From positions 20,603,913-20,667,912 of the forward strand of contig CM022673.1 in assembly GCA_012295275.1 (NCBI GenBank): a DNA stretch of 64,000 nucleotides, written 5' to 3'. The notes under the pieces were generated by a model. The model saw nothing but the letters and a program-made list of their open reading frames with translations, was not told the DNA's origin and made no database searches. A program made the translations under genes and the position numbers. This stretch comes from Chrysomallon squamiferum. Taxonomy: Eukaryota > Mollusca > Gastropoda > Neomphalida > Peltospiridae. Below, in pieces: positions 1,259 to 64,000 of the stretch (within the stretch, counting starts at the first letter, position 1; each line of letters starts with the position of its first letter).

Positions 1259-1302
1259 AATTTGCCTTTGGTATCATTAACTTTGAGAGTTAATTCATTG
1301 AT
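1259..1302 (-). CDS. TnI: TnI exon 13b, alternative 44-nt exon
   Basis: TTCAG acceptor, 44 nt, GTGAGT donor, encoding INELTLKVNDTKGK plus two bases. It is closer to the usual family sequence (I-EL--KV-D--GKF) than exon 13a. Splicing both copies together would shift the frame, so they are expected to be mutually exclusive. The following exon should supply the rest of a Phe or Leu codon and the inhibitory peptide. Confidence 0.9.
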
Positions 1303-4300
1303 CTGAAAAAGAAACCAATGATGTTAAATACATTTTTCTAAAATTAAATACTTACAATTTGCCTTTCGCATCATTAAATTTGAGTTGTAAATTATTTATC
1401 TGCAAGAAAAAGCAAAGAGAAAAAAATTATACACATAGTAAATAGAGATTTCTTAAACTTTGATGATGTTTTTCTTTGTTTTCCTTTGTTTTATTTTTAA
1501 AAATAAGAACAAATTTTAAAAAGTAACTTTGTCCTTACAATTTTGAAGTTTTAATTCAAAATGTAGATAACATGTATGAATGCAAAAACTCTTGTTTTTA
1601 TTTTTTATTAGTATTTTTAGAAAAATCTTACAAGTCTTACTCAACAAACAAATGATTATAAATTTTTAATTAGCTTTTAAGAAAATACATGGTTAAAAGT
1701 ATTTGAAGTGTAACAAATTTAATTTTAAAAATTACTGAGAAAACGTAAAGAATAATTTAATATAAATTTATCATAGTTCATGTTGCTTTAATTATGAGGA
1801 ATTAATATTATTACAGATATAGCAATGGATTGTACAAAAATACCTACTAATAAAAAAAAAAGTGTTACATATTTAAATCAATTATTGTAATTCTCAATTT
1901 AAAAAACAAAAATCAGAATTTATTATTATTATTATTTTAATATCAATGGTGGAGTCACAGTTATTGGTGGATTTTTTATTTAATAAAAAATATGCTGCTT
2001 TTAGCAGTGATGTATTTGCTCTAGGTGTAATTTCATTATTTATACTGATCTTTTTATATAACTATTGTTTCTTTCTGTATAACTGTTACTGACATTAATA
2101 TGTCACTGTGTTATTAATATAATTATATCATTGTACTATTAATATTATTAATATTATTAATACTACTACTGCTACAACAGGATACCTCAAAGTCTTGTTT
2201 CCTGATTTTCACTTCCCAGTCAAAGACCTCCTCCTCCAAAACACATATTTTATTATGAAGTTTCTTGCACAGTTGTTGAAGGTCGGCTGTGAAAAACAAC
2301 ACATTCAGTTTTCAGAGACTGTTTTACAAACATAGTTGTTAAATGCTGTAGATGTGGCTAGTTATATAAAACAAAAACAGTCTTAGTAAATTCAGATGTC
2401 AACTGATAATACACTGAACTCTTTTAGTAATTTTATCTTTTAAGACTACAGATTGACAGAAGATAAGAGATCAGAATTTATATAGACTATGAACAAAAAT
2501 ACATTTGATAATACATTTTTAATCCAATATAAATATTAGTAGCATTACTTAGATAATTCATATTAAAAATATGAGTTATGTTGTGACAGAAAAAACATCT
2601 GGTCAAACAAATTGAAACCTACATTAATATTAATTTCCTGATTGATGAAAAATTACTGATCACTGTGATGTCAGTTTACTAAAATAATATAGTGTGTAAA
2701 TATTCTCTTTTGTATTTAATTAAATGCTAATAAGGACCTTTACACCTTTACTAAAAATATTTGTAAACATTCATTCATTAAATACGATATATTTTCTTGT
2801 ACATATTACTTTTTGTTAAGTGAAAAAATCTGACTGATTATCAAAACACTAGTATTAAAACATTACAGAAAATAATTTAAACACTTTCCAAATTAGAAAA
2901 GCAAATCTTTAGTTACTTATCAGTAGGTTTTCATAAAGTTAAACATATTTAGTAAAAATCCATAATAATTTATTAAAATGTTTTTAAATAAAGACATTAG
3001 AACATAATACATGTACATACTAATCTAGATTTTTTTGTTTAGCAGCTTTTGTTAATGTGAATAGAAAATAGAAACAGTAGAGAAAGCACATTTTATGAAA
3101 TAAATAACATTAAAAATTAGAAAAAGGAAATAAACAAATCATATTTCAAAGTAAATTAACTGAAAAATAATCAGACAAAAATAACCATTCTAATTAATCA
3201 CAATATACATCAGAATAGTAACTTGATTAATTATAGCCTTTGTTTCAAATAATTATTACATGTCAATTAAAAATAATAATAAAATGAAAAAAAAAAAAAG
3301 TGCATAAACAGATTTGCGTGGACAAAAAATAATAACAAATAATAGATAATAAAATATATGCTTATGGCTACAATTAAATAAACCAGAGTTTTAATAATAG
3401 CTATAACATACCAAATATACTGATGCCAAGCACAGGAACAATGCTCTTAATATTTAACATACACTAAGGGAGTGTAAGGATAATTGTTACAATAAGGAAC
3501 TTTAAAAATATTTGACTTAGTTACACAAATTACAAATAAAAGTGTACTTACTGAAATTAATTATAAAGTAAGGATTGGCAGTGATTTACAATTATTTAAA
3601 TTATGATTACAAATACTAAGTTAAATGTAGGATTTGTGTTAAGGTAGTGGATGGATAAAATGTTTGAGAAAAATATAAAACAAAAGCCAGGGAAATGCTG
3701 TTTTCAGAATATTTACCTACACAATGCATGGTGAAACTTTCATATAATTAACATTACAGTGAGGTTCGACAGATATTTAATTCAACTGTTTTATAAAAGT
3801 GATGACCTTTAACATTGTAGATTATAATGACTGGGTTGTCTTGGCATTTAGAGGGCTTGTACCTAAAAGACTGAGTCATCAAGGCATTCAGGGATATATA
3901 CTCAAAAGACTGAGGCATACAATGTATTAGAGGACGTACTCGAAAGACTAAGCCATCAATAAACTGGCTATATTAGTAAGAGATAATGTGGACGTCGGTT
4001 TGGAGATTTTATTTTGATAAATGAATGCAATAACAAATGGATAAATAGCTGGCATATTATATTTTGTGGGGTGACTATTATGGATATTTTAAATCATGAT
4101 TTGGCTACTTTCTCCTTTTAATGTCATGTTGTAGGATTTCCCATGTTCAAGTTTATGTTGTCTATGGCAAAGTGACATTGTCCATCAGTATATGTGGTAA
4201 TGTTTTCTATGTGGTAGCTTAAGCAAAATTTTAACATCACCCAACGGTTCGAGTAGATCAACCTACCAACTGCAAATACAAAGATTCCTTTAAAGTTAAG

Positions 4301-4372: not shown

Positions 4373-4962
4373 GTATTGTTTTATAATTATTAATATAAGT
4401 ATATATCACTGGAGGCATAATTGTTTTTTTTATATATATGAATATTCTAATGGTCCAGGAATTTCATGTTCATAATATTGAATTTATTTATTGTTTATTT
4501 ACACAACAGGAAGTTTTATATCTGCTTACCTGAATATTCAAAAGGTCCTTGATTTTAAAGTTTCATGTCTACTTTTATATATATATATATATCTATATAC
4601 AAACACACACACATAAATGTATGGATGTATGTGCATGTGTCCATTTTGCCTGTATCAGAAATAACAGTTTCATTTTACAGACAACACTGAATATTCTATG
4701 TATATAAAAATTGTAACTCTCAAAATGTAAATGAATCTGTACAAATTGCTTTATACCTTGGTTCATTCCAGAGGTCTCTAATTCTGGTACCTGGGCGTTG
4801 ATGAACTTTTCTTTTTCCTCTGCTTTCCTCTTCGCCTCATTTCTCAAATCTTCAGCAGCCTTCTGCATGATGAGTTTCTGCAACAGGAAACAGCACAGAC
4901 ATTAATTCCCATGTAATGACCTTGCTTCAACTACAGCATATTTTTCTTTTCATTTTACATAA

Positions 4963-5664: not shown

Positions 5665-7949
5665 GTGATAATAATAACAATCATACACAATCCTAAGATA
5701 TGTATCAAATTAATTTCCTACAGGCATATAAATAATGATTGAATGATAAAATAAAGTATTTTGTATAAAAAAAAGACCAGCGGATGATTCATGTTTGTTA
5801 GAAATTTTTGTTTTGTTTTTTTCTTATTTAAAGAAAATACACAATGGTAAATAATTAAATAAAATAATTTCAAAAGATAAAAAAAACTACTCATATATTA
5901 ATAAGCCAGTATCCCAGTCTCAGTGTTGTAACATAAAAAGGTTTTATAAGAATAAAAAAAAATCAAATGTGTGTATAATATATAAATATATTAATTGACA
6001 AATGAGTGAATAACCATGCCAACAAAAAGCCTCATAAAATTGCAAGTTAAAATTATTGCAAACAGAACATAATTCTGTTAATACAATCACTAGATGTATT
6101 AATTAATGAATTAATTAATTATTCAAACAGCTCGTTATTAGTAAAGCAACCTTAATGAAAATTTCTCCTACCACAAAATAAAATATAAGTAACAAAATGG
6201 GCTACAAAAAAGTATTAAAAAGAACAAAAAAATTATTTTTGAAATAAACATGTTATTTTCCTGACTACAAGCTCTCAAAAGAGAAATTATTTTAAATAAA
6301 TAATGAGCCATGGCTTAATGTTTAAACAAACAAAAAAGATTATTTTAATTTTTTTATTATTATCATTACTATTTCAGTTACTGTTGCCATTATGATTATT
6401 ATTATTGCTGCAGTTATTATTATCATTAGACTATTTATTTATGACCTGACTTACTCTTTTTAACATTTTGATCTAATTTTGATTTTGATAAGTGAGGGGC
6501 TGTTACTGGTACAGAATGGAGAAAGTTGGGGTTTCGATATACCTTAAGAAGCTTCTTCTTTTCAGGTGAAAGGCCACCCAGACCTTTCCTCTTTCCCTTC
6601 TTCTTCTTTGCTTCCTCCTCCTTCTTTCGGCGAGCTTCCTGGAGTGGGAGTCGAAGAGGAAGTTAAATACAGATGCATTATGGTAAAGGGGGGTTAAATA
6701 GCAGGCCAGTTGTTTCTCTTAATAAAATATAATTAAATACTCACACTTCCTTTGGTATTGCTGGTTTCAAACATCTATTTAATAGGAGCTTAAGGAAACA
6801 ATATTATTACGCAACTGATATAATGAAAAAATAAATAAATATATTAAAAAAGATGTTTATGAAATTAATAAGAAATACAATTTATGGCTCCAACAGTCTT
6901 TTTTTTTTTTCTTTTTTTTTTTTTAACCCAGGTTTTGGTTATTGAACTGAAAAAAAGTTGTTGTTTTTTATATTAGCTATGTTTGTATATAAAAATGTAT
7001 GTAAGCAATTTCTGAGCATTTTTTTTTTAATCTGACAGAGCTAGGTTTCAGTGCTTAAGAATGCAAGATGGCTGAACCAACTTTTTTGAAAGAAGCTGGT
7101 CACAATTAAAGCTTGAAAATTTGAAAATATAAAGAATTTTTAAATGTAGAAGAAAGGAGAATAAGACCTAAATAAATGTAGATAATTTTTGTTTTATATG
7201 CCAGGCCACAGAGGAAATAGTTTAAATGAAAGAGAGCATTTTAAAATCTTTTTTCTGTTTTCTTTATTCAGTAAAAGATTTAGATGTTATTAGCACAAAT
7301 ATTAGTGTATTAGGCATCTAATCTACAAATGTGACAACATGAGAGTGTGTGAGCACATACTGACAGACAGACAGACGACAGGACAGCAGAGCCAAAGTGC
7401 AAGGTGTCAGACAATAAAAGGGGGACCCGTGACCAAAACACAGGCGAACGATTTTAGTAAACTGCAAAATAAATCATTTTAACATTAAAACTAAATTCAT
7501 TTCCGCTCATTTCAGATAAAAAAAATTTTTTTAAAAAGGAAAAAAAAGTTGTAATTATTGATGAAAATATTTTACACCAGTTTACACCAGTTTTGTTTTT
7601 ATTTTTATTGTTCTTTTTTGTCAAAATTAAATTATACCATTATTAAAATTGAAAATAAAATCGTATATATAAATTTCTGATGGGAATTTCTTTTTATGTA
7701 ATTCTGAGCGAAAATAAATTCAATATTATGTTTGCAAGACAATGAACAAAACAACATGACCTGTTTAGCGGCAGGCAAGATTTGGCGATTTACAGTTAGG
7801 TCTGGTTGCCAGCCATTGCTTCCAAAAGCTTTTCTGTATATTTATTAAGTTAATCTCTCCCAGGTATTTTAATCCTTTTATTCCGTTTGTTTTAATTTCA
7901 AAAAATATTATGGAACAATCTTAGTAAAAAATGACTGAGAAGTTATAAG

Positions 7950-7981
<32 letters not shown>

Positions 7982-10900
7982 AAACAGAAGAATTTATTGT
8001 AGGTTTCACTAGCTTTTCAAAAAAAAAAAAAAAGAAAAAAAAACAAACAAGAAATTTATAAATAGTATAAAGGACAACTTAATTCATCTTAATGGTATAT
8101 TTAAATACTGAATTATAATGTAAAGTAATTTATTTTTCCTATTTAAAAATAGAAAAGACCATTTCAAACCTTTTCTCAATATAGTGTTAATTATGGCAAT
8201 AAAATTTAAATAAAGAAGTTAGTAAAATGGTTTTTATAAAATAATAAATAGAGAAGCAATAGAATTTTTTTTTTTTTTTTTTTTTTTGTCTTAATGAAAA
8301 AAAAAAAAAAAAAAGAATAAAAAAAATGAAAAAAGATGAAGTTATTCAGCAGTTACATGACATCCACTGGATTTCTCTCTGCACCTCAAGTTTTTGTTTT
8401 CTTTATTTTCTTTTTTCCATTTTTTTCAATTTTTTTTTTTTTTTTTTTTCAATCTAAAAAGAAAGCTAGGCATGCCTATTTCTGATGATGTATTGGAATT
8501 GCAGCTCTGTTTAGGATTATCAGTCCTTTTGGTCTGTACAAAGTCTTGTTTAAATTTACTAAACTGGTGTAGAAGAATGTGGCTGGCAAATAAAAGATTG
8601 TGATTCATGCCCTGACTGGTGGAAAATACAAAAAGAACAAAGTTACTTCCTGCATCTCAAGCCTGAAACCCTGCATTTCTGCCATTTATTACTTGTCACA
8701 TGATTGCTTTGTTTGCAAATTATTTCTATCATGAGACTTGCTTATGTCTTTTCAAAGAACATTTTGCTATAAATATTAAGGCTACTAAATGGGGGGAAAC
8801 TAAAGACAAAATATATTAAGTATAAGATTTGATTTTGGTGTTTCTGTTTCTTCTGTTGGGTTTTAAAAATTTCTTTTTAATAAAATATTAGTTAATTTTA
8901 ATCAGTTAACTAAACTTCAACTGGCTATCAATTACAGATTTATTTTTAAATAAAATATAAACAAATACCTATGGCTGTCTTTTTAAAAGTGTGATTCATG
9001 TTTGTGTTATGATTTTAAACCAGTTGTTAAATTTATTTTAAAAACAAAGATTTCTTATTTTAAGAAGCTTTAATAATTAAAAAAAAAAACCATTAACTGC
9101 ATTAATTTAATTTTGATACCCATTAAGACATATGAATTCTTATAATTAGATATTCTCTGGTAATACAATGGACTTTAATGGAAAATATGCCAAAAGATAT
9201 GGTTCTTAATGTATATATTAAACTTTAATTTACAAAATATTCTTAATCTGTTACAAATCTGTCAGAAAAGGGTTTTAAAGTTTTGCAGGGTTTTAAAAAA
9301 AGTACAAAAACTGAAAACATGAGCAAGTCTCATCTAACCCTGTTGCAAAAAACACAATGATGCAATTAGACTTACCTCCTCCTGTTCCTGGCGTTCTCGT
9401 TCTAATCTTTCCTCTTCCATTCTGGCTTCTTCTTCCTAAATACGAACAGATATATTAAATTTAACATCAAAACTTTACAGCTTTTGCTTACAAAACATCC
9501 CAACGTCTAATCTTAACTGACAAAGGAAATATCTCAGCAAATTAATCAATGAATGATTCTCTACAATACTTCGAAATATCCTGTCTTCTGCACTGATTGT
9601 TCTGAACAGTTCTGCTTTCAACACAGAGCTGTTTATTGTTTCAGCAGGAATGTTATTGTTAAAATGTGAATTCATAAAGAATATTTTAAAAATAATCCTC
9701 AAAATTTGTTGGTGTAAATTCCAAGTCTGAAAACTTAATGCTTTATTAATCAGCGCAGTAATATGTCATCTTGAACTAGATTTCTGTTCCTGTCATCATC
9801 ATATTTACAGAATCCATTACATAAGATCAATATCTGAAAAATATCATTTCTAGATTTGAATTTTCAGTTTGCATAAAGTAAAACTGTGAAAATATAGCTA
9901 TCTGATTTGTCAAAGCTGTGGAGGTCAGATGCAGATCTGACTAAAATTCTAATTATGTAATGTAACATGCTTATGATAAAATTCACTGAATAACTAAATA
10001 TGTTAATCCTTCAATGTTTAAGATTGATTAAAAAAAATATATACATATATAAAGTTTAGACCCCCAGAGTTTGATAAGCATGTTCTTGCACTAATTCTTT
10101 GGAATATGTTTCATCAATAAAAAGAAAAATCTGGAAATATAGTAATTTCATAAACATTATTTTTTTAATTATAAATTTTTCACTTACCTGTTGTAAAGAT
10201 GATTTTGGAATATGCTGACTGATATATCATGCAAATTTATTATTTAACTTTTTTTTTTTAAGGTTGATTTTGCACTGGCATGCATTAATATTTACTGAAA
10301 TGTATTAACATGCATCAATATGTGTTAATATTTACTGAAACTATTAATATTCAACAGTTTGTATTAATAGTTACTGACATGTATTAATATTTACTGAAAT
10401 ATATTACATGCATCAATATGTGTTAATATTTACTGAAACTATTAATATTCAACAGTTTGTATTAACAGTTACTGACATGTATTAATATTTACTGACATAT
10501 ATTAACATGCATCAACAAGTATTAACATGCAAATCTTGAGAAAGACTGTTTATAAAACATTTGGTATATTTTTCACATGACCAGCTAAACTAAAGTTAAA
10601 AACAAAATGTAACTGCTTCAGTCTTTACTGATACTGCACATTCTAAATAAATTAGTGTTTTTTAAAAATAACTCTGTAAATTTTATTATCTTTAAAATGT
10701 AAATGAGAATGATAAGAAAATGAGAAATGTGCATTATGGCAAAAATACTAAATGGTATGAAAAACAGTATGTTCCAGAATAATAATAATAAAAAGCCCAA
10801 CAAACACTATTCACCATAAATAAATGGATGATATCAAAAATCTTTTTGAAAATAAATCACCATTAGCAGAATAATTTTAAAATGTGGCCAATTTAAATAA

Positions 10901-13900
10901 AAGTTATATATTTTTCAATTACATTATAATAATAATAATAAAAAATTATAATTAAAACAGTAAAAGCAAGATACAAACAATTCATGCATTTATACCTATT
11001 TACATGTTTTTCAATGTCCTGAAATAAAAGAGTAGATATTTATGTTAAAAACTAATGATCTATTAAATATTTCTTCTGATATCTTGAATATATTAAATGC
11101 ATTTAACATTTATAAAAAGATCCCCAAAACCCACCAGGTATCCAATTGTAAAATAACTTTAAAGTAAAGCAGATACATTCAGAGGAAGACTTACATTATC
11201 TGCGGTCAAACTTAAAGCAGCTGATGATGACAAACTTTGTGTGGATTTACTTAGTGTGGGTTGAGACCAAACAAGACCTTTGTCAATTTCCTCTTGAGTA
11301 GCATTCACTGCAAGTGAATTTATGTTAAGCACGTTGTCACAGTTGTTGCTTTTTACAACACAACACGATGAAGTCTTTAAGCATTGCATTTCAGGACACT
11401 GATTATTGTTACTGTTTGTTTTGAAATTATAAAACGATGATGATCTTAATGCCGGTTTGCTACTCGTTTCAGAAATTGATGACTTTTCCTGAGTCGTGTT
11501 ATCAGGAATAGATAATTCTAAGTTTTTACTTGTAACGAAACTCTCTGTTGCCAGTTTAAGCTTTCTGTTAAAGTTTGTGTTTCTGGTTTCAGCCATCTCA
11601 ACACTTCTTCTGCCTGTTCCTACATCATTCTTAGAGTTTAATCTATTCTCAGCAGAGCCTTCACAGTGTCCTGATAAATGACTTTTGCTCACTGGTTCTT
11701 TTAAAAGTTTCTTTTGTAAACGAGGAATTTTACTTTGATTTGTTGTGTTTCTTAATTCAGAAGAAACATCATCTGATTCAAGTCTTCCAGAAATGTTTGT
11801 AAAGTATGTTGCTGAAGAAAACAAATGATTCTGCTTCTCTTGTGTGACTCTGTGGTTTAAAAAATCTTCATTTTGCAGTGGTTTTGTATATTCTTGACAG
11901 TGCGACAACAAATGTTTGTGACTGTTCAGTGTTGAAGAATCACTTACTGAGGAAATGTTATCTGTATTTTTTAATTTTCCAATAATACCCTTCACAAAAG
12001 AACCATGAGAAGGTATACATTTTTCTTGTTTTCTGTCATCTTCCTTGAACACTTCTGATTGGTGGTTTACTGTATCAAGCAAAACTTCACATTTTGGAAT
12101 TTGTAAATCCTTGTGTGTTTTTGAAGTTGTGGTAGATGGATTAGTCATGGCTGAATGATTCTCAGAATTAACATCTCTTTTGAATTTTGATATAATCTTT
12201 GGGATGAGTTTGCTAGAGTAAGCAGCACTTAGATTACTTTTTGAAGCTGGTTCACAAGATTCATTAAGTGGACTCTCAGTAGACTGCATCCTAGGTGAGA
12301 AAAGTGAACTGTTTGATTTGAAGGATTCGGACATGAAAGGACTTGATGAAAAACTTTCACGCCTTGACTGACTCTCTTCAGAGAACTTTTTCTGTAGTTC
12401 TGAAATATCCAAACCTGATGATAATCTTCTAATCTGCATCCTCCTCTCAGTTTTAATACTTTCCAGTCTGGATGCCTCATTTTCCATTAAATCTTTAGTC
12501 AGCTGTTCAAATTTCTCCAACAAACTAGCAGTATAAGCATTCTTACTGGACATATTTTGAGAAGCAGAATCACTCTGAACTTGCAGTTTCTCAGATGTTA
12601 AAACACTGCTTAATTTTGGACATGATTTGGAATGTGTTAAGCTGCTTTCTGGTAATGGAGATGAAAGACATTTATTTTCATGCAAATAATTTTGAGATAC
12701 TTTGTTTTTTATTGGTTTCAAACAGTTTTTTTCGTTCCCTAATTCTAGATTGTAATCTGACTCTGATTGTATCTGCTTATCAGTGGATGTCCTGGGTACT
12801 TCTTCTACAATATCAGCAACACTTTTAAGGTCATTATCATTAAATTTTTGCTTCTGCAATTCCAAAGGCTCAGTTATTTGTTTCCGACTCAAAGAAGGAT
12901 CTGATGATTTTCGACTATTAAATTTGACTGGTTTATTTTTCTGCGGGTTGCCATCATTTTGCAGATTACTGAAAAATCTGGATTTAAAATCTGAAACTCT
13001 AGAACCAGAAAGTGATCTTCGTACTGGTTTTGTTTTAGCTGCAATTTGTTCAGCAGTTTCTGTAACCTCTTTTGACATAGATTCAAATCTTTCTAATAAA
13101 GCAGTGTACTTTGACTGGGACTTGAAATTGTTTTCATCAACTTTTGGTTTATCTAATTCTAAGTGTAAACCTTGTTTGGTTTCAGTGATTTGAAAGTTAT
13201 TAATTTTAGGGTTATTTTCAACAATATATGTTGTGTTTACTTGATCTGTTTTGTCCTGTGAAACGTTCTTTCTAGTTAAATTACTATAACTCAGCCTATG
13301 ACTTAGTTTCTGTTCAATGTCTGCTTTAGATTTTACTGGTTGAAGCATTTTCACTTCATCTTTATGATTTAAATTCTTCCATAAAGATTTGTTATTTCTG
13401 TTGAAACTGTCTTCTTTGAGCTGGCTGAAGTGTTTTCCACTGTCACCTGTTTCAACAGACACTGAGGCCAGATTATTTTCAATGGTGTCTTTACTTTTCT
13501 CACTTGTTGCTACATCTGCGTTAAAATTCTCAAATGTTTCAAAAACAGGGGTTATTTCTTCATGTTTGCTTGAAATGTTTGTTTGCAGTGCAAAATCATT
13601 TTTATACTTTTGCTTTAAGACATTATCTTGTTTCACTGTTAAAGACACATTTCCAGAAATCATGCTTAAATGTTTATCTGCTAAGGACACATTACAAGAA
13701 ATCAAATGTTGGTCTTTTAAAGATATATTACCAGAAATCATGACACTTTCATAATCATCTTTTGTAAATTTTTCTTCTTTTGCCTCTTTGCTTGGAAATG
13801 ATTTGTTAGAAAGTGATTTAATATTTTCTATCCTTTGCAACAAACTTGAATTTCCAACAATTGGCTGACTGCTAACAACTGGATGATCCTTTGTAATCTG

Positions 13901-16900
13901 ATATATCTTGGAATCACTGACTTGCTTATCAGATTCAAAACTGCTGGTTTTCTGATGTGTCCATTTTTCAAATGGATCATCATCATCTAGACAATATTTC
14001 TCCCGAACTGTCAGTACCTTTTTATCAGTTCTTCTTTTAGGTTTCATTTCAGGTGAAACCGATCTCTTGCCTGCCACTTGGACTGCTTTCCCCACCTGCT
14101 GGACCTGGTCATTTAAAGTGCCCAGGAGCTGGTTTGAGTTGTGCCTTGCCCTGATAACTCCTACAAGTTCCTTCTGTCTTTGTTCACGCAAAAATTTCTC
14201 CTTTCTCACATGACTGAGAGTAGATGCATAATCATTGTTAGACTTTGGATCTCTTAATTCATCATCCATGCATATTGTGTTACCTCCTGATATATTTTCC
14301 ATATTTTTAGTTGATGGAATAAACATTGACCTAGTTCTTAATAACCTGCGACTGCTACGTTCTGATGCAAAGTGTTGTGGTCTTCCCTAAACAAATATCA
14401 ACACTATTGTTAAATCATTGTACAAAAATATTAGCAAGCAAAAATACAGAGAAAATAACTTTCTAGAAAAACAATTAACATATAAAAATTGTTATGTCAA
14501 TAAGAATTTTAAAATTAAAAAAAAAAAAGAATGAAACCTATTAGATAATACATAAAAATAAAATTTAATCTGTTAATTGCCTTATTAAATATGAACAACA
14601 ACTACACTCACACTATCTTCATGACTACTAATTCTTCTTTTCTCCAGAGAAACAAGACTGGATGGAGTCCAGTCAGTTTGTGTTACATCAAGTTCTGGAA
14701 CACTTCTACTGAAATGTTTCATAGTGGATAGTTCTGAAGGTAACAGTGAAGAGCTCTGATATGAAGAGATGGTCATTGATTTTTCTGAGCTCAAAGACAA
14801 TGCTCTTGCTTTGTCTGAATAATGTGATGATCTGTTCAGACAGTCATTGTTCAGTGGAGACTGCCAAGGTTTAGCTGTTCTGTTTAAAATCTGAATATAA
14901 TGCTCTGAGGAATGGTCCTGAAGTCTGTCTAGTCTGCAGTCACTTCTGTAATAAGAAATATGATTGCACAAAGCTGGTGAGCTCTGTGTTTTCAAAAATG
15001 TATGACTTCTTTGACTTGCTCTGCTTCTGGAACTTTCTGTGTTAATACCAGATTCAGAAATGAAACTAGAATTAGGAGAAAAATCAGAAGAAGCAAGGAC
15101 AGAATTTTCTGAGCTGTCCAAGCTGAATTTATGTTTCAAGTATGTGCTTATCTTTGGCACTGATGAATGCCTCTTTCTCTCAGTTTGCCATTGGTTTTGG
15201 TTTGAAATGGTGTCTGTGACATGACTGCTAAAGACTTCACTGTTACTGTTTTCATTTGAAGCTGGAAGAGAGCCACGATGTATTCTTAGCCAGAGTGGTA
15301 GATGTGATGGTTTCTGACTATCTGGTGATTCTGTTTTCTCAAGCCTATAACCAGGAGAAGAAAAAGATCTTCTTTGTTTTAGTGACTCCAGCTCAGTCTG
15401 TTGATGTTTCTTAAATTGTTTATCCCATAATTCACATTTTTCCAATTCATCAAAAGGAGGAAGGACCTTTCGACCAATCATCATGACTGATTTTTTAATT
15501 TCTTTTATTTCTTCTCTAGCATTGATATCCATTTTATTTTCAGCATGTCTTTCTGATAAAGCAGTAGAAGCAGAAGCTGATGTTTCAGTTCCTGTTATTG
15601 GAATGTAACCCAAAGAATCCAAATTTCCATATTTGTCTATATTTGACAAAGATGATGAAAAGGTTCTTGATATTAAATCAGTTATAGGATTTTGAAATGG
15701 AACAGCATAAGCTTTGGTCATTAAATAGTTTGAAGTGTTCACCCTGTTTGGTTTTACTGGGACATTTTCCACCATTTTCTCTAAATAAGCTCCAGCAGAA
15801 GCTTTCAGAACAGTCTGGGCTTCATTATTGTATTTGTCTGCTGAACTTGGTCCTTTCTCTTCAACAAGTTGAGTTTTGTTATTAGGAAATGAACATGGTT
15901 CATAAGCAGATGTCTGTTTTGAAGACAGATTACTCACACTGGACACTGAGGTCATGTACCTTGGAGATGACACAAACACTGAACTTTCTACTGGTTCTTG
16001 CATCTCTATTGTCTGCACTGAGAAACCTTTCCTTCTTGACTGGGTACCCAATGTAACAACTGCATTAGTATTTACTTGTTTTACATCATCTGTTTTTCTT
16101 TGGATATAGGAATTATGTTCTATATGTTCACTGTTCTCTAATGTTGAATACGTATTTTTGTTTTCTTCAGAATTAAATATACAAGATGAATCTTCACTTG
16201 TAACATTTTCACCATCTCTGTCATTTTTTAACATCTTGCTACTTACTTCTGTTTCAGGATAATAAAACTGATTACACAATCTGCCACAGTCTGGAGATAA
16301 AATGTTACTTCTGACACTAACCACAGAAGTTTCCTCATCTCTCTGCTTAATTCCCACACTTGAGATATTCACTTCATTCATTACACATCCAGAATCATTA
16401 TTTTCTGTCTGTAGTTTTTCTGCTAGTTCACCATTTTTGTCTAAGGTGTCTTGTTTCTGCTGTTCTTCAATAGCTGCAAAATTTTTGACACTGTCTGTGT
16501 CACTCACTTCATCCTCAATCTCTGTATTTTCATTTGTATCACATGTTCTTACTGAAACTGACAGAATTTCACTTCCAATGATGGATTCCAGGCTGGTTGC
16601 TGAGCCTTCACATTGTTGTGTTCTGCTGATCACTTCCAGAAGTGCATCATCATCCTCATCATCACCATCAGCAACAGATTCTTTTGTATTCACAGAAAAC
16701 TCTTCACTGTAACAAAAACTGCCATTGTTGTTGACCTCAAAGTTGCTTCCTACCTCTTCACTTTCAGTTGCTTCATTGATTGTTTCAAAATGATCTGCAC
16801 AGTCCTGCCAAGGAATCTGTTCCCCAGAATAGCCACAGCATTCACACACTGATTTATTCTTAACATCATTTACCACATCATCAAACTGTCCTGGAGGATC

Positions 16901-19900
16901 AATGCAGTCAGCCTCTTCAGAACAGTCCTCATTGTTTGTAGCTGTACCGGCTGGGTTTTCTATCCAGATTGGAGTCACTTCAGCTACAGTTGAAGGTGAA
17001 TCCAGAAAATCAATCTCAACATCCAGATAAACTCCATACTTCACAGAATAATCTTCATCATTCTTATGACCAGCAGGAGAAACATCTAGACATGTGTTAT
17101 CAGAAAAGTCGGTTTCTTTCTTAAATATATTAAGTCCATCTTCTTCTTTTGCTGATGACAAGGAATTTGTGGTGTCTGAAGTATCAAAGTCATGACTGAG
17201 AAGGTGCTGCTGATGTTGCTTACTAACTGGAGGACAATCTAAACTGAAACAATCCATGTTAGGAAGACCAGCACATCTGTCACAGGCATCAATTGTCTCA
17301 ATACTTGAAGCTGTTTCAGAAGCATCATAATTAGCCACAAACAAACATGCTTCACTTTTCCAGCTGGACAGAGTTCCAACTTCTTGGTCATTAAAGTCTG
17401 AACCATCAAAGCTGTGACTTGAAGTCTTTAAACTATTTCCACCACTACAGTTAGATTCACACTGTTCCTCACAGGTTTGTAAAATCTTGTTCTTTATTTC
17501 AGCTTCATTTGCAAATAAAACAGAGCCATAATTTTGACACAGAATCTTTTCAATGCTCTGCAAATTTTGGTTATTTATTTTTGCATCATTTTCTGACAAA
17601 ACAGAGTTACTGTTTACCCCTTCATCTACAAATAAGACAGACTGAGGTAAATGAGATTCATCATTTTGCCTAGGAACCTGCTGCCCAGATTCCCCTGTTT
17701 TACAATCTGATTCAGTTGAACAATCATTCAAATGACAGTCAGCATCCAGACTGTTGTAAAATGCTAGAGCAGCTTCATTGCTTTCAACTTTTTTTCTTTT
17801 AATTTTGAAATAATATGATTTACTATCACCAGCCTTGTCATTTCCATACATAACATTATGCCATATTTCATCTGCTTCCTACAAATTGCATATCATGCAA
17901 ATAAAAAAGGCAAAAAGGTATGTTAGTAATCCATGCAACAATTTTATAAAATAAAACCTATACAACAAACATGATAATTTAATTTCTTTAAATTTTAATA
18001 TTATTATTATTATTATTGTTATTATTATTTTTTATTTTTTATTTTTTTTAAAGATATCTGATCATGGCAAGCAGAAAGCTGTAAATGTAAGCAATTGTTT
18101 TCATTTTAACTAATAATTAAAAAATAATTTATATTTGTTTTATACATATTCTCAAAAAATTTAAATGAAACATTTACTACTAATCCACCAGAAGTGCCAA
18201 AATTCCACAATGACAGATATGAAAGTATACTTTGAAAATACTATACACTTGCTTCTTTATATCATGCATATTATAAATGTTCATGCATACAAGAACACTC
18301 TCCATGCATCCTTACCTTTCTGTTCTTTACAGAGAATCTGCTTTAAACTTATACTTTAAAAGCTTTTTTTAAAATGTACACACATTTTATATACTTGTAC
18401 TTTATCACTTACCTGGAAGATATGTAGTCTAGCCCATAAAAAAAAAAAAAATACATACTATCATAATACTTTATATAAATGTGTTTGTGTCTACATCCCA
18501 CTGCACCTAGATGTTTAATATATTATGTGAACACACAAAATGTTTTATATCAACCACGTTTTGCACAGCATTCATCTTGTATCAGTCAAGAAACTAATAA
18601 AACATCAGATTGTGAAATGTTTTCATTCTTTCATTGCTGGATGTTTCAAATTCATTTATTCACCATACTTATTTTACCTACCTTGCGTTTTCTTTCTTCT
18701 TCCTCTCTCTTTGCTCGTTCTTCTTCCTCTCTCCGTCTCTGCTCAGCCTCCTGTCGTTTTCTCTCCTTCTCCTCCTCTCTGCGACGTTCTTCTTCTTCTT
18801 CCTCTTGTTGCTGCCGGCGACGCTCGGCTGCTTCTGCTGCTGCTGCTTCCTGGGCTGCTGTGTCGTCTGTTGATGGTTCCTAGCAAGGGTCAAAGGTCAA
18901 AAATGATTATAAAATAACCTAGTGTATGTTTTCAGATGTTTTGTTTATTTTTAATTATATATATAAAACAGTTATACAAAAAAAAGTAATGGTAATAATT
19001 AAATCATAATTTAAATAAAATATTACTTTATTATTCCCATATTTATAATGATTATAAATGCTAATATCAGACTAAATAATTTGAACAAATAAAAAAAAAA
19101 CACTGAAAATAAACTGAAACAAGTTTGTCTGAATAAGTGAATAAAATTTTACAAAAAAGTAAGTAAATAAACTGAAGGTAAAAGATCAATTCAGAGATAT
19201 TACTTGTTTTTAAATTCTTAACTCAATTCAATGTTACATACAGAAAATAAATATCTGAAAGAGAGAATTTGAAAGGTAAAGAATGAGATAAAGAAAGAAT
19301 AGCAAAATAAGTAAACATTTTAAAGTATAAAGACAAATGTACACACTTTATGGGAAAATAATAAATTAACACCATTAATTTTCATCCTTTACAACATAAT
19401 TGATAATCTTTTCTAACAATATACTCAAAAATAAAATTTGTTAAAAATAAGAAAAATTATCCTCTGAAATCTTAAAGAACCAATGAAACATGAATTACAA
19501 AAACTAATGATTGTTTCACTTCTGTAGTTTATGTTGTTTCTATCATTCCAATATATTCAATCAAGTTAAATTAAATAATAATTTAAAAAATATGTAAAAA
19601 CAAATAATTTTCATTATTATATTACTAAATTATTTTTTCATTCAATTTTAATTCTGTTTTCTTAAATTTTATTTATTTTTTTTCTGTAAGTCTACTACTA
19701 TGTACTATTGTCTACAAAACAGTCAGTGGATAAGGTTCAGGTAATAGCAGTAAAAGACTGGCATAAACAGGAAATACAAAATAATCAAATGGCTGCAATG
19801 CTAACTGGTTTTAAAACTAGGACAGGTGTTGAAAAGGAAACTGATTAACTAACACAAATAAGGTGATCACAGGACTGTGTATTTAAATATTTAAATATTT

Positions 19901-20687
19901 ATGCTACTCTCTAAACAGCAGTGCCAGGATGACAATACACACTTAGTCTAGATCTAGCACCCACAGAATACACCAACCAAACAAACCTCCTGTTTAGGTT
20001 CTTCCTTGGGTGTTTCATCCTGGTTAAATTAAATCAATTGTATTTGTTATAATTCTAAATAATTAAGTATTTGTTCAAGTTGTATTTTTATTACACTGAA
20101 TAAATTATATTTGTTAAATAGAATAAAACATCAGAATAATGTAAAATTAAGAACATTGTATAACACATGCTTTAATATTCTCTAAAATTAAAACATTAGC
20201 TAAATGAAACTAATATAATTAATGCATGCTTTGTTTTATTTTGTTTTTTAATTAAAAAATAAAATCATTAATTAAAAATAAAATAATATTAATGATATAG
20301 AATTTTATTACATTGTAATGTAAATACTGAATTAAATTTTAAACATTTAATTTTTTTCTGAAAGTCAGTTCATGATGAAGGAAAATTGGAGTAATCTCCC
20401 TTTAAAAACATATAACATTTATCTCAGGGAAGACACAAAAGAGCATGACAGTACAAAATACAGTGCAACACAGAATTTATAGCTAAACATACATTTATGT
20501 TAATATAAATGTTTTAATTATAAACTGAATTTCAAAAGAAAGTAAACTATATAAACTGCTTGTTTTCAAAAAGTAAAATAATAATTTTGTATCTGTAATA
20601 TTATAGTCAGAACCAAATTTAGAAATTTGTATCTTAAATTATTTGTATATCTTTAATAATTGTATTCATATTGTCTTCCTTATTACA

Positions 20688-20723
<36 letters not shown>

Positions 20724-23700
20724 TGACACAATTGTTATTTGATATTTCTTTGTACAGAAAAATGATTAATTAAAATATTTGTTTGAATCACGGCAATGTT
20801 TTCTTTAAACTGTAAAAACATATATTTAAAAAGATAATAAAGGTAATAATAAATGTGAAATTTATAAACAAATGGGTTATAAAAATCAATTTTATATTAC
20901 AGACAACAGAAATACAAAACATCTACAAGCACAGGCAGACAGCGAGACAAACACATCATTACTGACTAAGCTTTCAATATATTCTTCATTGGTTTGGCAT
21001 TAACATGGTTAAAATAAATGATCCACGTCAGTAAACCTTTGAAACACCTAGAGACAGTAATTTACACACGTCATGTCTTAATACAGGTTGATGTTCAGGA
21101 GTAGGGCCCACATAACTATTACCTTTTATGTGTTGGCAAATTTCATGCATAGGTGGGCATGGATTTTTACTTTGTTCTTTTACAGTGAAAAAAAAACAAT
21201 GGAGAGGCACATAGAGACATAAAACAACTAATGCAGAGTTATAATCAAATTATATAAGACACAGACTGACTTATGTGAGATAGTTTATTTGATGATATTA
21301 TAGAGATATACAAACAGATAAACATACATACAATAACTAATCAGATGATTTAATAAAGCACAGCTTGGTCTGTCTGTATTCGACACAAACATTAATCTGT
21401 GATATCACTTACTATGCATCAGCCTCACAAATATAACTAATCTACAACATATGACTTTCTACAACATTCTAGCATATGTCAGATACTCATAGAAGACATA
21501 AAACACAGACAGACAGACAGACGGACAGAGAGTCATTGATCTGTGACATGATTTTAAGGCATGAGCTCAGGTGTTCTGAGAGTGTTACAACAATCAGACG
21601 GAACATTCCGGTATTTACCTCGGTATCCCCACCCCGTCTCCTACGACTACGAGTGCTTGTTACCTCCTGAAAAGTGACCATGGTCAATACAGAAAACAAC
21701 AAAAACAAAAACTAAAATCACTGTAAAAAGTGATAAACAAAACTTAAACATAATTTCATTATCAGAGTTGAATTTTTCTCCATTTGTAATTTTTTTTAAA
21801 TATTACTTAACAAAGGCAGGATAAAGATTATTTATAATTCAACTTTGATAATGAAATGTTATTGCAAACAAAACCATGCAGAAACAAAACAAGTGTCAGT
21901 TTGTTTTTTCAAAGAGTTTTCTTTTTATAATAATAATAGTGTTTTAAAAATTAGTTACGCTGATGATGATCTGTATTTTGCTATTATATCAGTTACAGTT
22001 TTAATTTTTTGTCTCGAAATCAAAGTTTATGATCTTACAAAAGCCGATAAAATACATATACTTTTTTAAAAGAAAAATTATAATAAATTAAATTATAAAA
22101 CTGATATTTTGGAAATAAAGAAAAAAGAAGAAGAAACTGAATGTCAAAATATTTTTATCACACACTGGTAAATATTGCATACTTTTGTTAAAGTGTACAT
22201 GTGATGACAGAAAAACCAGATTATGTACTAGTATATGATAGATTCATATGTTTGTTTATTGTTATTGGACACAACAATCTTAGATAACAATAATATAAAA
22301 TAAAAGCATAATATGATAGTGGAATCTGAGACTTTCATATTGTTGTTTTTTTCTGTTTAAATTTCTGTATAAATTTTTATATAATCTTTGCAGATTTACT
22401 TTGATGTAGAATAACAGTGTTTGGAATGATACATGTAGGTAAAGTGACATTCTTTGGACTGAAATTTTATTATCATATTTTATTATTAAAAAAGATTGAT
22501 GTTTATTTAACAAATATATAATTCAACTGGACTGTTCTTTTCATATCATCAAATATTCACTTTAACCAAAGTTGTTTTAATCAAAGCAAATAAGATTTTA
22601 ATAAATTCACAAATATCTGACTTTAGCAGCTTTAAAACCAAAAGTTTAAAATATTAGTAAGAACCACCAAAAAACTGAACATTTGAATTTCTTCGGCCAA
22701 GCTTAAAATTACTTTTATTTTGCAAAACTTTTACAAACTAAATATATATTATTTTCATGTTGTGATTTTTCTTTTATATTTTCTTATTTTGGAACATGCT
22801 GATGCTTGAAATGTAAGGATAAGCCAGAACAATTGGTTACACCTTCAGTTCAGTTCAAAAACATCTAATGTTTATTTCTTGTTGTGACCAGACTGTTCAA
22901 AAACTGATAAAGATATTTACTTTCCTATAGTTCTCTCTTACTGATAACTGTATATTATCATTATAAAAAAATACATACTTAATAAACATTAATATTAAAT
23001 TAATTAATAATTTGCTAATGGAGTGAATATAGCCAAAACAAGCTGAATTTAGCACCAAAAAGATTTAAAACGATTGCTCCACCCACCAATTTACATTAGA
23101 CTTTGTCTTTTAAGTTTGGCCTTAGATCCTCATAACAGATATATATGTATGACAAAAACTGAAACTCTGAAATTAGAAAACCGTAACAAATCTACTATAA
23201 CAATGTCCTAGGTAAGAGAAACAAAAAAGGTTTTGGATGGTTCACCTCTGCAGGAGCTTCGTCCTCACCACCACGGTTACGCCTGCTTCTTCGACTAGTA
23301 GTTTCTTCTTCTGCTGGGGTCTCGGAGGCTCTGCAAACAACACATTTCAACTTTTATAAAATAATTATTTAATCAGTCTTTAAGATAAAGTGAAAATTAA
23401 AATGTTTTGTTACAGTTTTTCAGTTGTTTTGATGAAACCTGAATGAATGTTAAAAATTAAATTTCTATGTATCAATCTGTTGGTCTTTGCACTGTTATTT
23501 TTTTTTTTACATATTTATTTTATTATATTTTATTTTATTTTATTTATCAATGTCACATTTAGGTACCTGTAAATTAATATTTAATTATCATTATATTTTT
23601 TGATGTATCTTATCATTTTAATTACATAAAACTGAAAAATTACCTGATCTATGATTTGAAAAAGAGAAATCCAAAATTATGTTTTAGATTTAGAAATATC

Positions 23701-26700
23701 TTTATTAAAATAATGATAATAATAAAATCAATCCTTTTATACTACATTTCAAGTCAAAAATAAATAATGTTAACAACATATTAATTAAATTATTCATCAT
23801 TATTGTTATTAAGGTAAATGAAATAAAAATAATGTGAAAAAACTGGAGTCAAACACACACAGTAGGATTATTATCAGTAATCACAACATGCGTAAAAAAA
23901 AGAAGTAATTTTAGATAAAATTTATAATTATCTTTATTTCAAATTCTCTGATCTGCCATAAATAAATGAATTAATCATTTTTTTTGTAACTCTTTAACTT
24001 ATTTTAATATTAGATATTAGATATTTAATATTAGAATAATTTATAAAACTTTTGTCAATAAATGATTATTTAAATGATTAAACCAATGTTTTACATTGCT
24101 CAGGTTACTTTTATAGATTAGCAAAAAGTGGTCATTTATATTAACTTTCCCAGAGACAGAAACACATAACTTTGTTAAACCAGACACTTATCATTTCTAA
24201 AAGGGAAATAATTCAGTCAGTACATCAAGTAGGATTGATTCTGAAACCCAGTAATTCTGTAACACATAACCCTGAAACCTTCAACTGATATTTTACCTGC
24301 AGGTAATCTGATGGAATGAATGAATGATATGATTAAATGATTAATTACCCAGTATGTTTTCAGTAAGTTAGAACAGAAACTAATGAGATGTTTATGATAA
24401 AGTTGGTTTCAATCAAGCCTGTTTAGATTATACATAATTTAAATTAAACAAAAATGATATCTATTTTTACATAAATTCTGTCATTTATTTTATTTTATTA
24501 TATTATTGTTTGATTATTAATTAATTTATTTATTTATTCACTCATTTGTTTTTTATTTTTTTCTAAATTTGATTTCTTAAAATTATTATTTTCGTTTTTT
24601 ATATTATTTTTAGAAAAAACAAAAAAACAAAACAAAATAAAACATGAATATATGGTTTCCATTTCATGAAAAGTGATATGTTTGTTATGTTAAAAAAAGA
24701 AACTTCTTACAACTGTTTGTTGAGAAACAGAGTATATCACTGGAAGATAAATTTGCCTTTAAAAATGTCAGTTTATATTTTATTTACATAGTTTGTTGGA
24801 AAAGATAAGCAAAAACATTTTTTACAAATGAAAATGTAAAAAAAAAAAATTTAAGAAATAAAAACCTAGTAAAAGATTTTCTTTTTAAAGTTCTTCCATG
24901 TATTGAAGACTGTTAAAAAGAAAATAATATAACAGAATACCATACTTATGTGAAAATATACTGCATTTAATTATCTGGGCAATAAAAAAAATAAATCTTA
25001 AATAGTATACCATACAAGAAAAGATACGGCAGTAAAAAACAAAATAACATATTTATTTGTTGGAGAAAGATTACAAGAATACTACACCACATCTGACACA
25101 GAGCAGAAGAGAAAAATGTTGGCACTCTGCCAGAAGTTCTTGCCTGAGTCGAGCTTCTCTCCGCTCTCGCCTCCTTCGCTCAAGGTCATCCTCACCATTA
25201 ATAGTACTAGACTCACTTGCGTCTCTACATTAACCACACAGAAAAAACATGTTAAGCCACACAGGAGATGATACAAGCAGGGAGGAAAGAAACAAAAATG
25301 GCAAAAAGTTCCTGGAAAACAAAATCTTCAAAACCATCCATAAAAATAAAATAAAACAAATTAATGCATTGAGTAAAACAAAAACAGGAACACAATTAGG
25401 TTTTGTTGCAATCCATGTGGAGAATTAATTATGCATGAGGTGCAGTTAGATTGTTTTTGGATTAAATATAAGGAAATTTATCCTTTTTGTTAGAAAATAA
25501 AAAAATTTGCTGCATTGTTGTTATATCAATTTCATAAAAAGAAGTATTACATTTCTTTTTTTTTACTCTTTTTTTTGATAATCTTATAAAAATACATACA
25601 CCTTTTATATAAGCATGAATGATTATTTTTTTCTATCAATAAAAATAAAATTATGAAAAAACATAATAATTCAACCAAACATGGATCCAACAAATGAAAA
25701 ACCAAAGAAAGCCACATCAAATTATAATTAAATCATTGCTCTTCATAAAGGGCAGTTTCAACTGCACAGACTAAATTAATTTTATATACAAATTATTTCC
25801 ATGTTACTGTTTTATTTTATTTTAATAATACCACATTTTCCTGGTATAATTCTGAAAGAACTGTAAAAAATCCCTGATTTCTATGATAAGGCAACTTAGA
25901 AATAGTTCATCATCTATAACTACATGGGTTTATTATTTTATACCATACTTTACTTTTAGCTACTGCTGGCTTTAAGAAACTGATAAAATAATGACTTGAA
26001 AAATACAAAATCTATTTAGTCTATGCCTCCATCACAGTCAGTGAGCAATGATAATTATTCACGTGGAATTTCTTTGGTTTCATATTAAATGTTCAATTTA
26101 TTTTCATATCACTATTTTTAATTTTATTATTATTTTTTTATCACACATGACTGTTCTTAAAGGGAATTAATCAAACATGAAATAAAGAAAAGGGAAGTAA
26201 ATCAGATAAATTTCAAACAAAATAATATAAAACACTGTTAAAAAGATAAATAAGGAAAACTAAAAATATAAAAACTGAACAATACTTTAGAAAAGATTTT
26301 TCATCTAAATTTGTGAAACTTTACATATTCAAAATATTTTATTTTCAATTTGTCATTTATTTTTAGATGTCCACAGTAGATAAGTACTGAAGTTAATTAA
26401 TTTATATTCAAATGTTCTTAAAGCAGAATTTTTCATATAGTTACAAAAGAAATTAAATTAAGTCTATGTACAAATATTATAATTATGTGAAACTGATTAT
26501 GTTATATTGATCAGGTAAAATAATATTTATTAATAAGATGCAGTCATTATGTATTTTCATATGTTGCTTTTTTATTTGCATTTGTGTCCAGGAACTTGCA
26601 TGTTTGTGTTAATGAGTTTGTGTATGTATAAGTTTATTCAGTAAGTTAGTATTATACTACAGTTCATGCATATATGCATATGCATACATACATAATATTG

Positions 26701-55533: not shown

Positions 55534-56512
55534 TTTTATTCCCAGAATTCCGTTCCAGAAACTTTGAGATTGACTGGTTTGCAGGCCTAACTTGCACCTG
55601 CAATGTAAAATAAATATTAAAGGCGCTTCAAAACAAATATTAGTCGGTTCACCTAATCCAATATAATGGCATCTTGAAAGACGGAACTAACAAAAGATGT
55701 CTTGTTTATCATTTTTTATGACTGGATACCATTCAATTGCCTAAATTGTCCCCAGTATTGAATGGTTTGGATCGTACTAAGTAATTTAACGTATTCAATG
55801 ATATTGGTGTAATAACTAACATATTATGCGGTTTGGAAGATAATTCGCTTTCAATGGCATGCTAACTCAGTAAGTTACTGAGTTAATCATTAATGTTACA
55901 GTTCTACTACTCAGACTACTTTTTATTAGTGTTAGTTGTTAAAATACTTGGACATTCATCATATTGTAAACAATATTTTAAAAATTTTGATAGTTAACAG
56001 GAACATCAAGTCAACTATTACTGTTTTGTAGTGACAGTAGCATAATATATGCACTGTTATTGTTAAGTGCTCTCAGTCTCAAAAGGTAAATACCTAAATC
56101 GTTTAAAGTTTAAAGTTAAATTTAGATTACTGTCATTCAGTGCAGATCCAAGAATGATAACGAAAGAGTCTACTGTCCAGGTAAAGCATTGTGAATGTTA
56201 TCCATGTTCAGTTGTTGAGAGTTACATTTCAGTTTGACATTTCAGTGTTAAATAAACACTTGCAATGGAGCAGTGAAATTTGTTAAATGAGAATTCTTTG
56301 CTTTGTGTTTAAATGAACTAATGTCAAATCTCTGAATTTAGCTCTTTTTCTGTCTGTCAGTTAATTAACTGAAATTGATTAAAGTTAATGACATTTCCTA
56401 TTTGGAATTACAAATAAGTAGTTATTCACATATATTTTTATTTTAGATCATTTAATTGGTGGATGAAAAGATGAGTTTATTTCATGTCATCCTCTTCACA
56501 TATTTAAAGTGA
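55534..56512. promoter_or_regulatory. Divergent promoter region between ACP1 and LIX1L
   Basis: The two start codons face away from each other, 979 bases apart. The gap holds the phosphatase 5' leader (up to about 55.6 kb), probably a LIX1L 5' UTR exon ending at CCAG|GTAAAG (56180) or AAAAG|GTAAAT (about 56084), and the acceptor at 56445-56446. No TATA box is obvious at a fixed distance. Confidence 0.5.
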
Positions 56513-62497
<5,985 letters not shown>

Positions 62498-64000
62498 TGA
62501 AGACATTAATTGCTTAACTGAGAAAGAATTAAAACATAGCTTCATATAAACTAAAGTGGTTGAAGAGAAAAAACATATTTTCATTTAATTTGGCCATCTG
62601 AAACAGCTGCACACTGCACTCTTTGGTTAACCCAAGTGACAGTATAACTTTATTAAAACGTTTGTTTGATGAAAAGAAGTCAATGGCTGTATCACTTGTT
62701 TTAGAATGTGAAAGTATAAGACTGTTGAAGATTCACTTGTTTAAGTATTAAATCACAGTGAATGATTCATCATAAAAACTTATTTTCAGACAGAGAGATT
62801 CTGATATTTATTACTAAGCAAATATTTACACACAAAATTATCAATATTAATTAACAAGAAATATTTAATATGTGTTGCTTTTTTACAGAGTTTGTAGTGT
62901 TTTAAAATGATTAAGCACTGAGGAGATAGAGCACATTCACACTGAAAGTAAACCAAATCTTGATCATGTCATTAATACTATGCATTGTCAGCGATAATCT
63001 GTCAGAATCATCAAATGTGTGTAAATACAACTTGGTACTTAAAGTCAGAAAAAAAAAAAAAAATGTGTTAATTGCTCACTGTGACTGACGAAAGACTAGG
63101 CTAGACCTATTAATAGTATTATTTGAAAGCAAAGATAAGAAAATTAAAAATATATGTTATGGAATATTCAATGCAGCAACATTTATTTAATTTTATTATT
63201 TTTTTTATAACAATTGTATTTAATAAACAGCTAGTGTAGACATAATGATTCAGTGAAGAAATTTTAAAAAAAACAGAGTTAAATTGTGCATATTAATATT
63301 ATTTTAATATATATATGTAAACTAATTAAAAAGGCTTATTTGGCTTAGGTATCTATCTTGTTTGTTACCAGCAAATCAAAGATGCCAAGTTGAATTTCTT
63401 TGATAATAGGGTATTAAGAAATATGGGTAAAATGTTTTTTCGGTTTTGTTTTTCTTTGTTATTTTTTGTAGCAAAACATTTTTATTTTATTTTAAGAATT
63501 ATTGTTTGTAATGGATATTCCTTGCTTTTTAGAAAGAGTAGATGATAAAAAGCTTTACTTTTAGGCTTGTAAAAAATCTGTTATGTCTGCAACAAAAGAG
63601 GCAACTCAGTTCCAAATACAAAATGAAAATAATGAAATTATTTGACAGAGCTTTTTATGTGTAAAATTGTTATATTATTACTTGCATTTAGTAATATTGA
63701 AAAATAAATGAATTAATTAATTAACAAACAAACAAACAAACAAATAATAATAAAAAACAAAATTATTATATTATTATTGTATTTATATAACACCTTTGCC
63801 ATACTAAGTAAGCTTTACAATTTAAACTAATAAACTAAAATATAAAATAACTTGGACATAAACATATTAAAATAAATGTAAACATCATGATGAATATGTT
63901 GAAACAGTGGTAAACATAAATGTCACATTTTAAAATTGAAAAACTATAAACATTCAAGAATCGTAACTTAATGTTGTTTATTATCTTGTAATAATAATTT
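62498..64000. other. LIX1L 3' UTR and downstream flank
   Basis: AT-rich, non-coding. Contains an A run at about 63050-63063 and ATTA/CAAA repeats near 63712-63743. No further gene starts before the window ends. Confidence 0.6.
63222..63227 (+). terminator. Candidate LIX1L poly(A) signal
   Basis: AATAAA about 725 bases after the stop codon. Other AATAAA words exist in this AT-rich 3' region, so the choice is tentative. Confidence 0.3.

Follow-up and report, generated by a model that had tools for sequence, protein, structure and literature searches.

Why should one intron of a gene for troponin I (TnI), a well-studied small muscle protein, contain two very long open reading frames? The question is raised by a stretch of 64,000 nucleotides from the gastropod Chrysomallon squamiferum (GenBank assembly GCA_012295275.1, contig CM022673.1, positions 20,603,913 to 20,667,912), referred to below as the window, in which a TnI gene runs on the minus strand and carries within a single intron the two blocks that we call giant exons G1 and G2 (Table 1). 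The answer that we favor, with slightly better than even confidence, is that they are tandem giant cassette exons which would give rise, rarely or in certain tissues only, to a giant TnI of 2,463 residues or more, in which a disordered scaffold arm is attached to a thin-filament subunit.

Two giant open frames inside a troponin I gene

Both blocks are free of stop codons from end to end. When all frames of the window are measured from stop to stop they are the two longest, with 1,097 (G1) and 1,075 codons (G2), the third having 146. At the stop frequencies per codon of base-shuffled sequence (0.0743 and 0.0770), frames this long would stay open with a log10 probability of -36.5 for G1 and -37.0 for G2, and chance was rejected as their origin (ca. 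1e-36 each). A preliminary description of this DNA had given the coordinates, lengths and open frames of both exons and had considered them too long for chance, all of which was borne out when rechecked. Given the assumed splice sites, each block exceeds 1 kb, is open, is a multiple of three and has the same phase at either end. The intron between them (14387-14611, minus strand) measures 225 nt, which is also a multiple of three, is T-rich (52.4% T) and runs into a stop at codon 9; a transcript that retained it would encode a protein cut short after G1.

The host gene was modeled by an exon scan combined with reading by eye, and its last exons, those following 1259, lie beyond the left edge of the window, so that the inhibitory and switch regions of TnI fall outside the part covered. 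The joined TnI exons matched the Pfam family Troponin (PF00992) with an E value of 1.9e-24 over residues 196-288 of a 288-aa piece, confirming what had been said earlier of the flanking exons; the match covers positions 1-94 of the 134 in the profile, the remainder of which falls beyond the window edge. At E <=0.01 the solved chains matched amounted to 24 distinct sequences, 16 of them named TnI (best 6.3e-14) and eight TnT (best 6.5e-06). The PDB chain 3tz1_B, which is named Troponin I and which we take to be a scallop TnI peptide, was identical at 21 of 23 residues. From the Met codon at 32621 to the window edge the joined frame is free of stops whether the blocks are left out (310 residues) or included (2,463); as the final exons are outside the window, the larger figure is a minimum for the giant TnI. 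The intron that carries G1 and G2 is a phase 0 intron.

Conservation and composition of the giant exons

In a search of ~5.8 billion proteins with E up to 10, in which the candidates with the most words in common with the query were scored (7,999 for G2 and 7,995 for G1), each block found a single match (E values in Table 1). That of G1 was P0002 (1,250 aa), with 43.1% identity (430 of 998 aligned columns), and that of G2 was P0001 (1,272 aa), with 38.4% (387 of 1,007). To judge from these alignments, G1 and G2 are conserved protein-coding sequence. For P0001 and for P0002 a single contig is listed, in each case with a length of 15,214 bases. The two relatives probably come from the same contig, and G1 and G2 have probably been conserved in another species as a pair. 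The protein search that had been suggested for both exons provided one relative for each, but no full-length giant TnI: with a conserved part of G2 and a length range set from the joined 2,153 aa, P0001 was the only one found among 303 candidates. Relatives of P0001 and of G1/P0002 were also sought in bacterial/archaeal and viral contigs, where none of the 33, 11, 115 and 15 pattern matches was confirmed.

The similarity is concentrated in conserved islands, e.g., SSWKSEACLFV, VKYGVYLDVEIDF, GNSSLLQRIENIK and RMQIRRLSSGLDI, with poorly alignable, gapped stretches between them; VKYGVYLDVEIDF and RMQIRRLSSGLDI are among the long runs that are identical in the relatives. These islands are the best candidates for sites at which the predicted protein might bind partners. 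No Pfam match above the cut-off appeared in G1, G2, P0001 or P0002. The presence of a known domain in the two blocks was rejected, as the Pfam matches were sub-threshold (PCC in G2, E 0.048; ERp29 in P0001, E 0.02) and the PDB sequence search gave none for G2 and one for G1 with E 0.73. Internal repeats were discarded after BLASTP within each exon had given no pair at E 0.5, as was a sequence link between G1 and G2, since the only cross-species BLASTP pairs across the exons were two weak ones (E 0.37 and 0.45). Within 13114-12370 of G2 (minus strand), a stretch of the form SKYTALLERFE...RRSLSG...SDFKSRF resembles, by eye, another of the form AYTASLLEKFE...IRRLSSG...SELQKKF; both look-alikes are located in better conserved parts of the exon, and BLASTP gave no repeat here. 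An enrichment of kinase-type sites was likewise rejected in 10 tests against shuffles (five motifs in two exons), in which the sole motif above the shuffles was R..[ST] in G2, with 17 occurrences vs. a mean of 10.0 (P 0.013, one of the 10 tests).

Serine makes up 15% of the inserted part, and in the charge-hydropathy comparison both blocks fall narrowly on the disordered side (0.416 and 0.400 vs. boundaries of 0.438 and 0.421). This composition points, by a narrow margin, to a disordered arm. The long disordered scaffold of the preliminary description agrees with it in respect of the disorder, while the scaffold role is one that we infer. At the DNA level, the A/T ratio is 1.28 in G1 and 1.49 in G2 and the purine content 55.4 and 56.7%, both above the maxima (1.06 and 52.1%, respectively) reached in the rest of the gene by 80 overlapping 3-kb windows of the sense strand. 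The A content (35.4% in G1 and 39.3% in G2) is in both cases above 33%, although eight introns span 28.0-38.0%, so that this value alone means little. GAAGA-type motifs amount to 15.3 (G1) and 13.8 (G2) per kb, about threefold the 4.7 per kb of three introns.

Splice sites and reading phase

On our own scale of splice scores, G1 and G2 have weak acceptors (-1.5 and 0.9, respectively) and fair donors (2.8 and 3.1). Acceptors of the remaining scored TnI exons lie between -0.1 and 8.1 and their donors between -1.0 and 8.4. Each block is immediately preceded by its bounding stop, an in-frame TAG whose AG doubles as the proposed acceptor; phase 0 at this end is therefore automatic and provides no independent support. 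In three sampled introns, read in the three sense frames, TAG represents 62 of 397 stops.

A way to examine the phase at the other end is to read through the donors in both species. Continuing past G2 in the window gives VSLPLNVSALL, from GTAAGT, after a final DN, and P0001 ends with LDLDD followed by VSIS (a joint between DD and VS), the homology with G2 reaching that point. Homology that extends up to VS, as expected from read-through of a shared phase-0 GTNAGY donor, means that G2 is seemingly not the last exon in either species. A shared phase-0 donor at the end of G2 fits both sequences, for P0001 as deduced from its protein. Read-through of G1 gives VSVVVVHI (GTGAGT) in the window and VSVFVLSIYF... 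in P0002, which makes a shared donor plausible there as well; recognizable homology stops at PELDV/PDLDV, which in the window is 24 residues ahead of VS and in P0002 14 residues. Independent evidence of phase is confined to the donor of G2, and by our own estimate is worth perhaps a factor of two. The earlier claim of phase 0 at both ends of the exons can be sustained insofar as they may be read in this way and the G2 donor is shared, but the acceptor phase is partly automatic through the TAG.

The first nine codons of G1, which precede its first Met, have a coding score of 1.97 (non-coding mean -1.97, G1 mean 3.32), and 13.4% of stop-free non-coding windows of nine codons score equally high; they lean to coding, though weakly. 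Codons 1-10 of G2 score 3.37, a value reached by 6.5% of non-coding windows.

A proposed giant troponin I and its alternatives

The coding conservation of both blocks, their matched phases, the open joined frame and the TnI identity of the gene are observed. To these the proposal of a giant TnI would add the joins at 18682 and 9435, regulated skipping, disorder and the scaffold role. Most transcripts would skip G1 and G2 by splicing 18682 to 9435, giving an ordinary TnI with the charged N-terminal extension of invertebrates, and some, probably in one cell type in which repression is presumably weaker, would include both blocks. With both included, the charged extension would be separated from the troponin core by ~2,153 Ser-rich residues. 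The giant TnI would keep the core for thin-filament binding, while the inserted arm, long and for the most part unfolded, would bind partners through its short conserved islands. The TnI of >2,400 residues advanced in the preliminary description is upheld as far as the open frame of 2,463 residues and the conserved coding exons are concerned, while the transcript joins are those of the proposal.

Several observations weigh against this proposal. The joining of the blocks to the TnI exons rests on DNA and protein sequence and is not proved. G1 has a weak acceptor that coincides with the stop bounding its frame, the lean of codons 1-9 to coding is itself weak, and the homology of G1 fades before its donor. 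The database yielded no giant TnI of full length, although it may lack spliced mollusc proteins. Introns within the G1-G2 unit, one of 225 nt and one of 176 nt up to an acceptor at 11018, are short in comparison with the 0.8-7.3 kb of the other TnI introns, and would suit a compact separate gene. The A and purine bias fits the cassette model, but coding sequence as a rule is rich in purines and nested genes are also A-biased (PMC10901741). Finally, an acceptor at 9611 (score 1.6) opens a short coding-like end (9611-9561, minus strand) that reads NCSEQSVQKTGYFEVL before a stop, gaining 6.3 bits over 16 codons, and could be a rival last exon or due to chance. This end and the fading homology of G1 led us to lower our estimate for cassette inclusion slightly, to where only a little more than half of our confidence lies.

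The main rival, to which we give a lower but appreciable confidence, is a nested same-strand gene. It would have a promoter of its own within the upstream 803-nt intron, would start at the Met of codon 10 of G1 or in a first exon not seen here, and would close with a separate last exon past 11195. Apart from the short internal introns, it is favored by a Met just ahead of the conserved block in both species (in P0002 this is no more than the predicted start). As to its end, nine acceptors scoring >1.5 are found between 11195 and 9435, eight of them foreign to TnI, and five AATAAA/ATTAAA signals follow G2. The best of the nine is the TnI exon at 9435 itself, whose phase-0 reading to the first stop gains 21.5 bits over 33 codons. 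The strongest, at 11018 (5.7), has an AATAAA downstream at 10687, but its 41-codon reading, with a stop at 10893, scores -21.0 bits and includes a Tyr run derived from a TAT repeat, and acceptors as strong as this one occur about 0.55 times per kb per strand in the window. The end at 9611 is coding-like, but its acceptor is weak and no AATAAA/ATTAAA is listed from its stop to 9436. Another acceptor, at 10589, gains 0.6 bits over 25 codons, and the other five range from 0 to -11.1. At the opposite end of such a gene, the intron before G1 contains four readings from an ATG to a donor scoring >2, with two distinct donors; three of them overlap and are phase 0 at the donor, but all four score between -7.0 and -9.3 bits. 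Between G2 and the next TnI exon we noticed two candidate in-frame microexons, DIEKH and HIPKSSLQQ; in both, a strong splice site at one end is paired with a weak one at the other.

A transcript that starts in the intron before G1 and continues through G1 and G2 into the TnI core would produce a giant TnI without the charged extension. The weak acceptor at 17878, the Met at codon 10 of G1 and the phase-0 donor of G2, from which the frame continues into the 9435 exon, would all be compatible with such an alternative promoter; we nevertheless hold it to be unlikely, as codons 1-9 of G1 score closer to coding than to non-coding sequence and no promoter mark was present among the features tested. 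A shade less likely still is a protein that combines the charged extension and the giant arm with a last exon of its own and lacks the troponin core. The phases do match where 18682 would be joined to 17878, and acceptors, AATAAA signals and the coding-like end at 9611 are available downstream of G2, but the strongest of these acceptors opens onto codons that are not coding-like. For an artifact, be it chance frames, a decayed insertion or an assembly chimera, no supporting point was found; the probability of chance for each frame and the long relatives of both blocks elsewhere make it very improbable indeed.

Other features of the window

The TnI exon at 25224-25144 apparently ends in a GC donor at 25143 (CAG followed by GCAAGA), after which the frame meets the next exon exactly. 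Near the window edge, two tandem TnI exons of 44 nt (1259-1399, minus strand) have the same phase and are separated by 53 nt, a gap that is probably too short for them to be spliced together, so they are likely mutually exclusive; the fly TnI gene presumably has mutually exclusive exons of this sort. A LIX1 (limb expression 1) gene is located at 56500-62500 on the plus strand, opposite to TnI, with Pfam PF14954 matched at 1.6e-72 and 3.8e-18 in two of the three pieces scanned.

Table 1. Exons of the troponin I gene, giant exons and candidate microexons in the window.
Feature	Position	Strand	Length and phase	Evidence or remark
Giant exon G1	14612..17878	minus	3,267 nt, 1,089 codons, phase 0-0	open frame; relative P0002, E 5.3e-127
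Giant exon G2	11195..14386	minus	3,192 nt, 1,064 codons, phase 0-0	open frame; relative P0001, E 5.4e-87
TnI initial coding exon, MSTAEERREARRRRRARGEDT + 2 bases	32557..32621	minus	phase 2 donor	start-exon scan; in frame with next exon
TnI exon, charged extension, GC donor	25144..25224	minus		sequence and frame
TnI exon, charged extension	23246..23330	minus		exon scan
TnI exon, charged extension	21619..21666	minus		exon scan
TnI exon DETPKEEPKQE	19987..20019	minus	33 nt	sequence and frame; weak splice sites
TnI E/R-rich exon, directly upstream of giant exons	18682..18879	minus	phase 0-0	exon scan, splice scores
TnI exon EEEARMEEERLERERQEQEE, directly downstream of giant exons	9376..9435	minus	phase 0-0	exon scan
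TnI core exon EARRKK...KLLK	6543..6638	minus		Pfam Troponin on joined exons
TnI core exon KLIMQKAAEDL...	4757..4877	minus		PDB match 3tz1_B across joint with previous exon
TnI core exon DLQQLCKKLHNKI...	2186..2286	minus		exon scan, Pfam on joined exons
TnI core exon, alternative copy a, INNLQLKFNDAKGK	1356..1399	minus		sequence and frame
TnI core exon, alternative copy b, INELTLKVNDTKGK	1259..1302	minus	length and phase same as copy a	sequence and frame
Possible microexon HIPKSSLQQ	10188..10214	minus	27 nt, phase 0	donor 9.3 strong, acceptor -0.8 weak
Possible microexon DIEKH, or start of rival terminal exon (stop 10893)	11004..11018	minus	15 nt	acceptor 5.7

Comparison with known systems

The observation of conserved giant coding exons, in frame within a TnI intron, has been strengthened; a giant protein is its best reading, not a proved one. 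If true, it would be a form of TnI about eight times larger than usual, one subunit could physically tie thin-filament regulation to other structures, and troponin would become one of the few genes with giant coding cassette exons. A further lesson would be that gel-based work can overlook such forms. Even in the case of a nested gene, there would be ~2,150 residues of conserved coding sequence without a Pfam match above the cut-off. Among the papers listed by our searches, with the subscription literature mostly outside them, no title or opening of an abstract described a mollusc TnI that is giant or has a large exon, and a study of scallop muscle, in the portion available, handles TnI as an ordinary subunit (PMC5963113).

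Nested genes are alike in being long A-biased coding units inside a host intron; here both ends match in phase, the search for a first exon that looks coding found none and the candidates for a last exon are weak. Among other invertebrates, the TnI of protostomes carries an N-terminal extension, and in the sea urchin HpTnI (~52 kDa) this was described as unexpectedly long and blamed for the past failure to detect the protein (PMC5341096). The TnI of molluscs and HpTnI share with the present gene the PF00992 domain and the extension, and HpTnI proves that long extensions occur; however, 52 kDa is the size of that whole protein, whereas here the insert alone has 2,153 residues and would lie between extension and core.

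The ordinary form of the alpha subunit of NAC is, we assume, small. Its muscle-specific splice variant skNAC, which reaches at least residue 2187, is generated through a large exon (PMC10340688). Going by this description, skNAC resembles our proposal as a muscle splice form made by inclusion of a large exon, but differs in that its exon is called Pro-rich and its host is not a thin-filament protein.

The closest parallel to the proposed arrangement is the category of giant protein-coding cassette exons, which comprises those of ANK3, ANK2, MAP2, MAP4, MAPT, NIN, MPRIP, NASP and CLIP1 (PMC10901741). The human ones bound by SAFB proteins are purine-rich and, in all but MAPT, A-biased; SAFB proteins repress such exons by competing with SR proteins on purine-rich RNA, and the giant exon of MAP4 is confined to muscle and heart (PMC10901741). 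Giant ankyrins indicate that exons of this kind may be ancient (PMC5135030). G1 and G2 would share with them a very long in-frame coding sequence within an ordinary gene, the A bias (MAPT excepted) and the purine richness. The known exons yield a giant, often tissue-specific isoform, an outcome proposed for G1 and G2 from sequence alone, and the repression by SAFB belongs to them; G1 and G2 differ from all of them in having a troponin gene as host and in being two in tandem.

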